DNA of 64,000 nucleotides from Corynebacterium deserti GIMN1.010 (lineage in GTDB: Bacteria > Actinomycetota > Actinomycetes > Mycobacteriales > Mycobacteriaceae), in the NCBI RefSeq assembly GCF_001277995.1, contig NZ_CP009220.1:1612001-1676000 (forward strand), given 5' to 3'. The notes below the pieces were generated by a model. It was not told where the DNA came from and searched no databases. It was given only the letters and a program-made list of their open reading frames with translations. The position numbers and the translations under genes were made by a program. This document shows positions 896 through 39,477 of the stretch, piece by piece. How positions within the stretch are numbered: the stretch's first letter is position 1; each line of letters begins with the position of its first letter.

Positions 896-916
896 TTTCT
901 ATTCCGCTATAGATAA
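896..916 (-). promoter_or_regulatory. AmtR-type operator, proximal to amtA
   Basis: The sequence contains CTAT (899-902), six bases, then ATAG (909-912), with flanking T-rich and A-rich sides. This matches the C. glutamicum AmtR consensus CTAT-N6-ATAG as I know it. It lies 43 bases upstream of the amtA start. AmtR is the TetR-type repressor of nitrogen genes released under nitrogen limitation. Confidence 0.75.
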
Positions 917-930
917 CCTAACCCAATTTC

Positions 931-950
931 TACCTATCAGTCTATAGAAT
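931..950 (-). promoter_or_regulatory. AmtR-type operator, distal to amtA
   Basis: A second CTAT (934-937)-N6-ATAG (944-947) box, with its centre 35 bases from the first. Paired boxes at one promoter suggest cooperative AmtR binding, an inference from spacing only. Confidence 0.7.
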
Positions 951-1126
951 TACGTTTTTATAGCGCAGATCACAAAAGGATGTCCCCGACGGGGGTTGAG
1001 CTAGCCTTTGAAAACCCCGATTAACACCACGAAATGGCCGCGACGTGGAGTTTGACGCCGAGATTTACGGCATTTCGTCGAGAGCTCGTGAATCCAGGAC
1101 ACTGAGACATGGACGCCCGTCGCGAG

Positions 1127-1370
1127 TAGCACCACATCTACCCCTATATATGGTGCCAGGTGGTGTCTACGGGCAGTTGAAAATTTTTCGACCCCATTTC
1201 CATAACACACCACAAGACATATAACTGTAGATGTGGTGCTACGGTCGCGTGGCGTCACAATTTCCATCAATGTGGCAGAAAAAGTGCCCCTCTAGATCGC
1301 CGTTTAAGCGCCTTACATCGCCCGATCCTTAGCAATACTCATACGGAGAATTCGATCCCTTAAAACGCAA
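1127..1370 (+). repeat. Intergenic repeat element, copy A
   Basis: Noncoding element of about 245 bp filling most of the 605-base gap between amtA and secG. It opens with an inverted repeat, GTAGCACCACATCTAC (1126-1141) and its exact complement at 1227-1242, extended imperfectly to 1112-1117/1251-1256. A second, nested pair is GTGGTGT (about 1161-1167)/ACACCAC (about 1207-1213). A 38-base block at 1273-1310 follows, then a weaker conserved stretch to about 1370. The whole layout matches copy B (39115-39374) read on the minus strand. Frames homologous to the only ORF of copy B are broken by stop codons here, so the element is unlikely to encode protein. The rest of the gap holds the AmtR boxes and the secG terminator. 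Confidence 0.75.
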
Positions 1371-1393
1371 CTCCGCAAAGAACTGGCAGAACA

Positions 1394-1433
1394 AAAAGGG
1401 CGACTCCCCCGCATACTGGGGAGTCGCCCTTTT
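1394..1433 (-). terminator. Rho-independent terminator of secG
   Basis: A perfect 16-bp stem (1394-1409 with 1418-1433) and an 8-base loop, ending in a T-run on the minus strand. It lies 26 bases after the secG stop, closing the gap-pgk-tpi-ppc-secG cluster. The mirrored T-run makes it potentially bidirectional. Confidence 0.9.
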
Positions 1434-1458
1434 AGAGCTCGTAAAAAGCTAGCGACGT

Positions 1459-1692
1459 TTAGGAGTACGCCTGGATGAGGTTGAGTGCAATCACGCACAC
1501 AATCCAGATGACGGCGACCAAGATGGTGACGCGGTCCAGGTTCTTTTCAACAACAGTGGAGCCCGAAAGATTGGACTGCACACCGCCACCGAAGAGGCTG
1601 GAGAGTCCGCCACCCTTACCTCTGTGCAGCAGGACGAAAACCGTCATGAGCAGGCTGGCGACGACGAGAATGATTTGAAGCGTCAATGCCAT
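1459..1692 (-). CDS. secG: Preprotein translocase subunit SecG
   Basis: Small membrane subunit of the SecYEG protein-export channel; 77 residues from ATG at 1692. Two predicted transmembrane helices (about 4-23 and 54-73) flank a cytoplasmic loop rich in Gly, with RGKGGGLSSLFGGG at 24-37, which is the family signature. I prefer this start to the longer in-frame one at 1722, because the extra ten residues are charged and precede helix 1, and an AGGAAC element precedes 1692. It is the last gene of the glycolytic cluster, 118 bases after ppc, and is followed by a strong terminator. Confidence 0.93.
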   Translation of the reverse strand: MALTLQIILVVASLLMTVFVLLHRGKGGGLSSLFGGGVQSNLSGSTVVEKNLDRVTILVAVIWIVCVIALNLIQAYS

Positions 1693-1810: not shown

Positions 1811-4570
1811 CTAACCGGAGTTACGCAAGGCGGTGGACAGACCATTCATGGTGAGCTGAATGTTTCGGGAGATTCCATCGCTGTCGTCGCCGCTGCGGAA
1901 GCGTCGCATCATTTCGACCTGGATGACATTGAGCGGCAACAAGTAGGGGTATCGACGCTGCACGGAACGCGCGAGCAAAGGGTTGTCATCGAGCAGATCG
2001 CTCGAGCCTGTAATTTTGCAGAACATCTTCTTTGTGAGGAAATATTCCTCGAAAATGTCGGTATAGATGCGCTCGGCCACCTCTTGGTCTGGGATGAGAT
2101 CCGCATAGAGCTTGGCTAGTCGCAGCTCGGCCTTGGACATGACCTGAGCCATGTTGTCCAAAACAGAGGTGAAAAATGGCCAAGATTCGTTGAGGGTTTG
2201 CAGCTCAGCGATGCGTGCCTCCGCCTCTTCCCCACTGCCAATCCATTCTTCCAGCGCAGAGCCCACTCCAAACCAGCCTGGCAACATGACACGGGACTGT
2301 GACCAGCTGAGTACCCAAGGGATTGCGCGGAGATCGTCAACCGAGGAGGTCTGCTTCCGCGATGATGGGCGCGAGCCGATGTTAAGCGATCCGATTTCTC
2401 GCAGCGGAGTCGACTGGGTGAAGTAGCTGATGAATCCTGGATCCTCGTGCACCAAGGAGGAGTACTTTTTCAAGCTAAGCTCGGAGATTTCACGCATGAT
2501 GGTGTACGCGCGCTCAGGATCAGCCAAATCAGAGACATCCAGCAAGGTTGCTTCCAACGTGGCAGAGACCAGCGCCTCCAGGTTTCGACGAGCCGTCTCG
2601 GGGTTACCGTACTTAGCGGAGATAATTTCGCCCTGTTCAGTAATGCGCACAGATCCGAGCACGGCCCCCTTGGGCTGTGCGAGGATCGCATCGTAGGATG
2701 GCCCGCCACCGCGGCCGACGGTTCCGCCGCGGCCGTGGAACAGGCGCAGCTTGACCCCGGCTGCGCGGCAGAGCTCAACGAGGTGCAGCTCCGCGTCGTA
2801 AAGCGCCCAGTTAGCAGCGAAGTAGCCACCGTCCTTGTTGGAGTCGGAGTAGCCCAGCATTACTTCCTGGGTCATGCCACGCTGCTCAAGGTAGTTGCGA
2901 TAGAGGTCGATTCCCCACAGTTCTTCGAGAATGCCGGAGCCTGCCTGTAGGTCCTCGATAGTTTCAAACAGCGGGATGACGTCGACCGTGCCGGTTGGGG
3001 AATCGCCGTTAGCGGCGATAAGGCCGAATTCTTTGAGCAAAACCATGGGCTCGAGGACGTCGGTGACCGATGAAGCCATGGAGATGATGCAATGTGGCAC
3101 CATGCGAGGGCCGAATTTTTGGACTGCTTCCGAGGCTTTGCGGAAGATGCCAAGCTCGCGGTCGGTGGGCTCGCTGTAGCCCTCGGCGCCATGTGGGATC
3201 AGCGGGCGCGGGCTGCGCAATTCTGCAAGAAGCAGCTCGAGCTTTTCTTCTTCGCTCATGTCGCGGTAGTTGTCAGTGACCACGGCGCGCTGGAAGAGCT
3301 CAGTGAGAACATCTTCGTAGCTCTCAGAGTTTTGGCGCAGGTCAAGGGAATAAAGATTAAAGCCAAAACTTTCGACGGCGGAAATCAGCTTTGCCAGGCG
3401 GTCATCGGCGATGAGGTCATCATTGGAGGCACGAAGGGACTGATCGACGGTTACCAGGTCTGCCAAGAACTCCTCTGGTGAGGTGTAGGGTTCGAACTGG
3501 CGGAACCACACGCCTTCGACAGCATCCTCGCCGATCAGGTGCGCGGTGGTCGCAAGGATGCGCCCGCGAACGCCGTGAACGGCGCGTCGATAAGGCTCAT
3601 CGACGCGGCTGGGCACGTCGTTGTTGCCGGCATCAGCAAGCTTGCTGAGTTCCTGGGTCACCGCGTTCATGCGGTCAGAGAGGCTGAGCTCGTGCTCCAG
3701 GGAGTGAAGCTGACGAGTGTAGTACTTGAGCACCGTTTGAGCCGCGCGGTGGGTGGAGTACTCCACGGTGTCGGCGGTGACATATGGGTTGCCATCGTGG
3801 TCACCACCGATCCAAGATCCCGGCTTGATAACTGCCTTATTGGGGATGTCCTCGCCAAAACGCTGGCGCAGTTCCAGGTTGACATCGCGGTTGATCTTGG
3901 GAATCTCCTCCAACAAGCTGAGCTTGTAGTAACGCAGCCCCACCTCAATCTCGTCCTCAATACGCGGACGCGCGACGCGAATCAACGCGGTTTGCCACAA
4001 AATGGTGATGCGGCGACGAATGCTGCGCTCGATTTCATCCAGTTTTGCCTGCGTACGTGCCGTTTCCGTCGACGTCTGAATGAGGTGACGCTCACGCATG
4101 TGGGTGGTGATCCACTTCTGCGCATCAAACACTGTGCGACGACGGGTTTCGGTGGGGTGTGCGGTAAGAACAGGCGCCACCTGGGCATTGTTCATGAATT
4201 CGGTGACGGCCTGTGCATCTGTGTTGGCGTCGTTTAACTTTAGCCACGTAGCGTCCAGAGTGGAATCGGGCGGGGTCTCCCCTGCGTCGAGTGCCTTTTC
4301 GCGGGTTTGCTCATCGTGGAGGTCTTCGGCCAAGTTGGCGAGCAATGCGAAGTGGGTGAAGGCTCGGGCAATTGGGGTTGCCTCAGCTGGGCTAATACCA
4401 TCGAACACCGTCACTAAGCTGTCCATGTCGGCGTTGCCCTTGGCGATCTCAAAAGAGATCTGGCGTGCCTTCTCCACAAGCTCATAGACCTCGCGGCCTT
4501 CTTGCTCTGCAATAACCTCACCGAGGATGCGACCCAAAAAGCGGATATCATCGCGCAAAAAATCAGTCAT
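1811..4570 (-). CDS. ppc: Phosphoenolpyruvate carboxylase
   Basis: Cytosolic anaplerotic enzyme converting PEP and bicarbonate to oxaloacetate. It has 919 residues from ATG at 4570, the usual length in C. glutamicum. Visible active-site motifs are TAHPTE (136-141, catalytic His138), FHGRGGTVGRGGGP from residue 611, GYSDSNKDGG, and the C-terminal QLTMNGLSTALRNSG. An upstream in-frame ATG at 4594 would add eight residues; I reject it because family members begin MTDFL. The gene follows tpiA with a terminator hairpin between them, so expression likely comes from both readthrough and a nearer promoter. Confidence 0.97.
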   Translation of the reverse strand: MTDFLRDDIRFLGRILGEVIAEQEGREVYELVEKARQISFEIAKGNADMDSLVTVFDGISPAEATPIARAFTHFALLANLAEDLHDEQTREKALDAGETPPDSTLDATWLKLNDANTDAQAVTEFMNNAQVAPVLTAHPTETRRRTVFDAQKWITTHMRERHLIQTSTETARTQAKLDEIERSIRRRITILWQTALIRVARPRIEDEIEVGLRYYKLSLLEEIPKINRDVNLELRQRFGEDIPNKAVIKPGSWIGGDHDGNPYVTADTVEYSTHRAAQTVLKYYTRQLHSLEHELSLSDRMNAVTQELSKLADAGNNDVPSRVDEPYRRAVHGVRGRILATTAHLIGEDAVEGVWFRQFEPYTSPEEFLADLVTVDQSLRASNDDLIADDRLAKLISAVESFGFNLYSLDLRQNSESYEDVLTELFQRAVVTDNYRDMSEEEKLELLLAELRSPRPLIPHGAEGYSEPTDRELGIFRKASEAVQKFGPRMVPHCIISMASSVTDVLEPMVLLKEFGLIAANGDSPTGTVDVIPLFETIEDLQAGSGILEELWGIDLYRNYLEQRGMTQEVMLGYSDSNKDGGYFAANWALYDAELHLVELCRAAGVKLRLFHGRGGTVGRGGGPSYDAILAQPKGAVLGSVRITEQGEIISAKYGNPETARRNLEALVSATLEATLLDVSDLADPERAYTIMREISELSLKKYSSLVHEDPGFISYFTQSTPLREIGSLNIGSRPSSRKQTSSVDDLRAIPWVLSWSQSRVMLPGWFGVGSALEEWIGSGEEAEARIAELQTLNESWPFFTSVLDNMAQVMSKAELRLAKLYADLIPDQEVAERIYTDIFEEYFLTKKMFCKITGSSDLLDDNPLLARSVQRRYPYLLPLNVIQVEMMRRFRSGDDSDGISRNIQLTMNGLSTALRNSG

Positions 4571-6951: not shown

Positions 6952-8503
<1,552 letters not shown>

Positions 8504-39114: not shown

Positions 39115-39374
39115 TTGTACGCCCGTTTAATACGTCGAACTTTCCGAATGACCATTGAAGCCAGACGGGGGTTGGTCAGTCGCTTAAACGACGATCTGAA
39201 GGGGCACTTTTTCGCCACCTTATTCCCGCAGGCTTATAGCTTGACGTGGCAATGCGTAACCGCACCGCACGGGAGCTTATGCAAACATATTTGCGGTGTG
39301 AAAATCGTGTTGAAAAATTTTTGAGTCGATTCTGACACCGCACGAGCCTTAATATAGCGGTAGCTGCGGTGCTA
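39115..39374 (-). repeat. Intergenic repeat element, copy B
   Basis: Read on the minus strand, this matches copy A (1127-1370). It opens TAGCACCGCAGCTACC (from 39374) against TAGCACCACATCTACC in A. The AAAATTTTT core lies at the same offset, as do the four CACCGCA/TGCGGTG motifs, and the 37-base block at 39181-39217 is about 34/37 identical to 1273-1310. The similarity continues weakly to about 39115. A 69-codon plus-strand ORF (39115-39324) crosses it but is broken in copy A, so it is not a gene. Further CACCGCA/TGCGGTG copies lie outside the element at about 39427 and 39456. Confidence 0.75.
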
Positions 39375-39477
39375 TTTTAAAGTGGCAGGGACTGTGACGG
39401 CCCTTGCCCCTGGGCTGCCACTTGAAACACCGCACATCACCAATCAAAGGTCGGTTTGCGGTGCCATTGGCGAACAA

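Follow-up and report, generated by a model that had tools for sequence, protein, structure and literature searches.

A nuclease-linked, possibly self-spreading inverted-repeat element in Corynebacterium deserti and its relatives

The stretch of DNA analysed here (the window) comprises 64,000 nucleotides of the Corynebacterium deserti GIMN1.010 genome, designated G000, and contains two related intergenic elements. Copy A lies on the forward strand in the gap between amtA and secG. It opens with an inverted repeat, HP1 (1127-1166), whose arms lie around CACCACA (1130-1136) and GGTGGTG (1159-1165), and continues with a second, HP2 (1206-1241), containing CACCACA (1208-1214) and TGTGGTG (1232-1238); the outer arms of HP2 and HP1 are copies of each other in inverted orientation. 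Two conserved blocks, R1 (1278-1310) and R2 (1340-1369), complete the copy. The same parts are found in copy B on the reverse strand: HP1 (39336-39374) with CACCGCA (39371-39365) and TGCGGTG (39342-39336), HP2 (39261-39300) with CACCGCA (39298-39292) and TGCGGTG (39269-39263), R1 (39181-39213) and R2 (39121-39150), the motif positions in both copies being our own reading. The 5' arms of HP1 and HP2 in B are 73 bp apart, and an extra upstream inverted repeat, H1 (39428-39463, reverse strand), is present in B as in many, not all, of the copies in G000. A mechanically called ORF of 89 codons overlaps copy A. Adjoining the 3' end of secG, positions 1399-1434 hold a GC-rich inverted repeat with a T run (GGGCGACTCCCC ... 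GGGGAGTCGCCCTTTT), probably an ordinary terminator distinct from the element.

The homology of A and B proposed in a first-pass annotation of the window was confirmed by global alignment, which scored 143 against a maximum of 10 across 200 shuffles. The same annotation had the first 113 bases aligning with almost no gaps, which is only roughly so, as 65 of the 113 are identical without gaps and the gapped alignment introduces several short ones. The shared 3' block, on the other hand, was borne out: B shows three differences in its 27-base core, and a profile of the R1-R2 region matches both A (1278-1377, forward) and B (39213-39109, reverse), each of which is also among the training copies. 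Four motifs had been said to read one way in A and another way in B; this holds for all four in B and for three in A, the second motif of A being GGTGGTG rather than TGTGGTG.

Further copies of the element were readily found. With copy A as the blast query, its own genome returned 62 matches. Visual merging reduced these to 32 places, to which a second query contributed another two, one of which carries R1-R2 alone; the total of about 34 places includes A and B. That the two are chance look-alikes or independent terminators, a reading in favour of which nothing was found, is contradicted both by the alignment score and by the number of genomic places, and can practically be dismissed. A typical copy consists of HP1, HP2 and then the R1 ... 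R2 block of about 100 bases; many copies have the extra upstream repeat, the order of parts differs in some (L010, L016, L021 and the like) and others are without certain parts. Of 21 G000 copies selected for measurement, 20 have the 5' arms of their two inverted repeats 73-75 bp apart; in A the figure is 78. The base preceding TAG varies within this family and other families begin differently: there is no constant GTAG or CGTC terminal tag.

The R1-R2 profile, built from 20 G000 copies, was searched against 400-kb samples of six genomes (E<=0.01) and yielded 48 hits: 20 in G090, 12 in G186, eight in G228, eight in G000 (among them three training copies and the copy belonging to a nuclease gene, N2, described below) and none in G221 or G044. 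In G221, which has a nuclease gene, the sample gave three weaker matches, and in the G044 sample none was seen even at E<=10; G044 has no homologue of the nuclease at E<=1e-5 and does carry another DUF559 gene. In the relatives, R1-R2 is accompanied by inverted-repeat sequences other than those of G000. A pattern for R1, allowing up to two mismatches, was absent from 241 other genomes; since the profile found the block in relatives where this pattern failed, the absence of the pattern is misleading when taken alone.

The twin arrangement of the arms is shared more widely than their sequence. Among 61 sequences, comprising the 48 profile hits and 13 nuclease gene flanks and including some tandem near-copies, a direct repeat at an offset of 70-74 was detected in 43, at other offsets in the tested range of 40-110 in three, and not clearly in the remaining 15; after shuffling, none of the 61 gave a repeat at 70-74 and one gave a clear repeat, at 90. 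A separation of about 73 bp corresponds to roughly seven turns of B-DNA, and we therefore read it as a sign of binding to duplex DNA. In the 200 bases preceding R1, the best two stems beat all 60 shuffles in 31 of the 48 hits (our own count) and were matched by shuffles in the other 17.

Such hairpin potential, together with gene context, is what a structured RNA element or a set of transcription terminators at gene 3' ends would be expected to display: of 30 copies placed by crude ORF calling, from the total of about 34, 17 lie between convergent ORFs, eight (A included) between tandem and four between divergent ones, with one unclassified. This reading is nevertheless very unlikely. Rfam returned no family at gathering score for window positions 900-1500 (two matches fell below it), and RNAalifold assigned 0 pairs to the R1-R2 block in an alignment of 48 sequences (A and B were added to 46 of the 48 hits; a near-identical tandem copy, L178:4860-4945, and L239:12353-12455 were omitted, and B enters twice, also as L224). 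A third hairpin formed by R1 and R2, in which TTTAAG and CTTAAA look complementary, was considered and rejected on the same RNAalifold result. Covariation does not exceed that of shuffled controls either. The four motifs had been thought to change in concert, preserving pairing in each copy, which is not so among 21 family members (from about 34, with inverted-order copies, truncated copies and L027, a near-copy of L026, left out): the first-repeat pair at issue is A-U in 15, G-C in one (B) and unpaired in five. Only two of 16 pairs changed on both sides in these 21 copies, a value reached in 78 of 500 shuffles, which makes compensatory change between A and B a weak argument. Nor would regular spacing, or a turnover of sequence tied to a nuclease gene, be expected of an RNA element or terminator. 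What endures of the earlier interpretation is a multi-copy inverted-repeat element, with either small-scale mobility or a protein recognizing a specific sequence as its likely cause; the structured RNA and the compensatory-change argument do not. The strongest evidence lies outside A and B, in that relatives keep the layout with other arm sequences and keep it beside a nuclease gene, a feature not visible in the window alone.

The gene concerned, N1, is a 290-codon ORF at G000:C1:437277-438146, outside the window; with a start fitting the other members it has 277 codons. It is flanked by two element copies and directly follows one of them. Strong homologues are confined to the Corynebacterium glutamicum group, giving 13 genes in all (two in G000, three in G228, two in G186, three in G090 and one each in G144, G156 and G221); at E<=1e-5, homologues occur in 28 of 242 genomes, those beyond this group being weak. 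The second gene of G000, N2 (G000:C1:458230-459069), is associated with a separate dispersed family whose arms resemble ATCGCACGGAT (L148, L213, L214, L217, L228), and thus at least two families coexist in this genome. No match was found to the N1 protein in a plasmid collection or to the N4 protein in a phage collection, from both of which records near the window's genome may be missing.

By eye, inverted repeats stand upstream of all 13 nuclease genes, and the R1-R2 profile matches upstream of 11, the best match for N4 and N9 being a tandem copy further upstream. In eight of these 11 the match ends 36-40 bases ahead of the start codon. The spacing test was positive for nine of the 13 flanks. 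By our own reading, the N8 flank has an R1-like stretch with no clear R2, and the element adjoining N10 is in reversed orientation. Tandem element duplicates were observed upstream of N8, N9 and N4 (L114, L143, L144), and a separate threefold array occurs in G090 (L178 4553-5264).

Analysis of the partner protein suggests a composite architecture. An AlphaFold model (mean pLDDT 90.5, pTM 0.84) was used for fold comparison, in which residues 161-270 resembled 3hrl (Z 8.9), the homing endonuclease I-Bth0305I (3r3p, Z 8.8) and Vsr (1vsr, Z 7.0), while residues 1-160 resembled the AbiEi antitoxin 6y8q (Z 7.2, rmsd 6.5 over 152 residues); Z scores of 7-9 are close to what the program itself indicates for models lacking any clear counterpart, and most of the listed matches span residues 124-272. 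Foldseek with the same model returned no match at E<=0.001, and a sequence-profile search of the PDB gave a single weak match, again I-Bth0305I (E 0.27). Residues D199, E210, H216, D226, R229 and G237-W238 are invariant in all 13 nucleases. Weak Pfam matches were obtained to MTES_1575 in 13 of 13 and to DUF559 in 11 of 13; N1 falls under both cut-offs (21 bits against 38.2 for MTES_1575, 15.8 against 20.6 for DUF559), and two of the 13 genes, N5 and N10, pass that for DUF559. Collectively, these comparisons support, short of proof, a predicted fusion of an AbiEi-like DNA-binding N-terminus to a Vsr-like nuclease domain.

The link between elements and nucleases can be followed through motifs taken from the gene flanks. 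In whole genomes, the N1 motif (up to two mismatches) occurs 25 times in G000 and 0 times in 200 other Corynebacterium genomes, and its exact pattern was not found in a wider collection of genome contigs, from which records near the window's genome may be missing. The motif shared by N11 and N12 (up to one mismatch) occurs 17 times in G144, 19 times in G156 and 0 times in the other eight of ten whole genomes, and that of N13 occurs 16 times in G221 and 0 times in the other nine. Three flank-derived motifs are thus found, among the whole genomes searched, only where the matching gene is. Exact-match counts in 400 kb from each of six genomes are less clean. The N9 motif (13 in G090, 0 in the five others), the N6 motif (three, all in G186), the N10 motif (five in G090, one in G000) and a short form of the N2 motif (nine in G000, some of which belong to the N2 gene, itself inside the sample, one in G186 and 0 in four) are concentrated in one genome each. 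The N3 motif (four in G228, one each in three genomes, 0 in two) and a short form of the N4 motif (three in G228, one each in G000 and G186) show background, short forms of the N1 and N7 motifs do not discriminate between samples, and the N13 motif is absent from the G221 sample. Like these, two further results count against the link: the N8 motif occurs three times in G186 and 0 times in its own genome, G090, and the N5 motif 0 times in its own genome, G228, and four times across three others.

A broader comparison took the profile hits, excluding the one at the N2 gene itself, and asked which nuclease flank each resembled most. With fixed windows, 28 of 47 hits matched a flank of their own genome best, against a permuted mean of 9.4, and 28 was reached in one of 5000 permutations; with profile-anchored windows (N4 and N9 wrongly anchored on the tandem copy, N8 and N10 without a hit and at the default) the count was 25 of 47. 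The 28 were distributed as seven of seven in G000, 12 of 20 in G090, five of eight in G228 and four of 12 in G186. For the other 19 hits the best match was not a flank of their own genome; some resemble the orthologue in a closely related species, and others belong to orphan families. Such orphan arm families, with no matching nuclease flank in the same genome, include ACCAGACCAGGCGACCAAAA in G186 and CCAAACATACGTGCC in G090; their gene may have been lost, or may lie outside the homologues found. Taken together, we regard the link between element and nuclease families as well supported.

Two genomic sites illustrate how the arms have changed. At the deoC-csoR site (gene names by our own reading), the orthologous genes of G000, G228, G186 and G090 are accompanied by four different arm sequences. 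At a response-regulator site, the arms in G000, G228, G186, G090 and G221 differ from the deoC-csoR ones, those of G228, G186 and G090 being partly alike. In the nuclease tree, the genes of each site fall on one side of a branch with support of 98/96, and the four genes from neither site attach to one or the other. Nucleases thus group by site while arms differ, which indicates that the genes stay and the arms change. Identities over the N-terminal region (residues 1-110) and the nuclease domain (161-277) are 45/66, 41/65, 65/80 and 53/59 for deoC-site pairs with unlike arms and 47/52 for N2-N4, also with unlike arms. Where the arms of a pair are alike, wholly or in part, the corresponding values are 72/70 (N4-N7), 75/79 (N4-N9), 77/81 (N5-N10) and 90/92 (N11-N12). 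In this small and non-independent set, these values fit a binding domain that may evolve faster where the arms change.

The elements could conceivably form an operator network. The nuclease-like protein would then serve chiefly to regulate genes or organise the chromosome by binding DNA, and the elements would be fixed, host-useful sites that were duplicated and not actively spread by the protein. The regular 70-74 bp spacing and the AbiEi-like N-terminus fit duplex binding of this kind; the placement of R1-R2 36-40 bases before the start codon in eight of the 11 nuclease genes with a match also speaks for this reading. We nonetheless hold it to be unlikely, given that the nuclease residues are invariant throughout, that the copies favour convergent ORFs over divergent ones by 17 to four of 30, and that wholesale differences in the arms among related species would be hard to maintain in a useful regulon.

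Gain or loss of elements between species is visible in aligned neighbourhoods. On the first contig, around base 7500, the blast segments of G186 are separated by 23 nt, whereas G228, G090 and G000 all carry an element at this position, its arm family differing in each. Between amtA and secG, where copy A lies in G000, there is an element of another family in G090 and other sequence in G186 and G228, and the gap is short in G221, G144 and G044; the sequence in G186 and G228 (L051, L052) contains an inverted repeat of another kind, CACCAAGATTT ... AAATCTTGGTG. A further site is occupied in both G228 and G090, by elements that differ in family and are oppositely oriented. A G000 copy, L029, has flanks that may represent a duplication of about 30 bases of a gene end; this one possible case apart, no clean target-site duplication was seen, one other site showing none, and the ends are not sharp. 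Beside a G090 element, a long stretch (L185, about 2281-3150) that may be an insertion sequence is absent from the aligned G228 region. Plasmid and phage collections, from which records near the window's genome may be missing, gave no DNA match for window positions 1100-1320.

Small size, a mostly intergenic location and presence or absence between species are equally features of a passive miniature transposon mobilized by an unrelated transposase, the nuclease gene then carrying a copy by chance or acting in defence or addiction by cutting DNA that either has or lacks the motif. This we judge quite improbable. The motifs are linked both to the gene and to its paralogue, and there is no clear target-site duplication; the search for a parent transposon covered Y1 alone, which makes that part of the argument weak.

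We consider it reasonably probable that A and B are non-autonomous members of a dispersed, REPIN-like element family whose dedicated partner is the nuclease N1; that the element has spread, and that the nuclease has a part in this spread, we infer. The AbiEi-like N-terminal domain would bind the arms as half-sites in duplex DNA, thereby repressing the nuclease's own gene, and would recognize the dispersed copies likewise. The Vsr-like domain would nick or cut at or beside element sites, after which repair could copy the element into new intergenic places, where it would be tolerated at the 3' ends of genes. Should the binding domain drift, only the elements that fit it would go on spreading, leading to a turnover of arm sequences in each species. 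On a broader and more tentative reading, possible at present rather than probable, this would be a novel class of bacterial genetic system: an AbiEi-Vsr fusion nuclease, passed on vertically, would recognize its own twin-palindrome elements and spread them, and in each species its specificity would turn over jointly with its sites, which number in the tens and perhaps the hundreds.

A second group of genomes provides a further example of the geometry. Weaker homologues of the nuclease in G163, G229, G113 and G174 have, by eye, twin inverted repeats 3' of the gene. A pattern derived from G229 and G174 occurs 15 times in G174, 12 times in G229 and 0-4 times in ten others, a count that shows dispersal in the two source genomes rather than specificity; in G174 and G229, many of the matches come in pairs 73-74 bases apart and have an inverted arm at a distance of 35-38 bases. 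The same geometry with a related nuclease in these two genomes suggests that the putative twin-palindrome system is not confined to the C. glutamicum group.

The best-listed entries of a search of open-licence PMC papers gave no description of this element, and our results suggest an unrecognized, nuclease-linked and possibly self-spreading repeat. With miniature inverted-repeat elements (MITEs) it shares small size, multiple copies and a mostly intergenic location; it differs in having no known parent transposon (among transposases, Y1 was the one family searched) and in lacking a clear target-site duplication. Akin to Vsr, the EDxHD homing endonucleases such as I-Bth0305I and the DUF559 and MTES_1575 families, the partner is predicted, at moderate Z scores, to have a nuclease fold, and it has an invariant E-Y-x-G-x-x-H and invariant D, R and G-W; here, however, the gene is free-standing with no intron or intein seen, is linked to a repeat and has an extra N-terminal domain. 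AbiEi is a repressor in a type IV toxin-antitoxin pair and binds inverted repeats at its own promoter. The resemblance of residues 1-160 to it is moderate, and here the putative counterpart is fused to a nuclease.

The closest comparison is with REPINs and RAYTs, the latter being single-copy, vertically inherited partners. As in that system, palindromic repeats occur here in many copies as doublets and also flank a partner gene, albeit of another kind. Passages of PMC3116915 and PMC3733652 describe REPINs as short extragenic inverted-repeat pairs, many per genome, with the repeat also at the flanks of the partner gene and with more than one family per genome. A REP/RAYT system proper was considered and rejected, as G000 gave 0 matches to PF01797, compared with matches in five of 14 control genomes. 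The element would therefore work like REPIN/RAYT by analogy and yet is not a member of that family, the defining transposase having been sought and not found: in place of a HUH tyrosine transposase there is a predicted Vsr-like nuclease with an AbiEi-like N-terminus, the arms are 70-75 bp apart, an R1-R2 block is added and the constant GTAG tag is missing. If this reading is true, REPIN-like biology has emerged twice, on this occasion around an unrelated nuclease and in the group to which the industrial organism C. glutamicum belongs. Several long motifs with probable readers would be open to direct testing in a standard laboratory strain, and orthologous nucleases with differing flank motifs would constitute a natural data set in which binding specificity and genomic targets change together.
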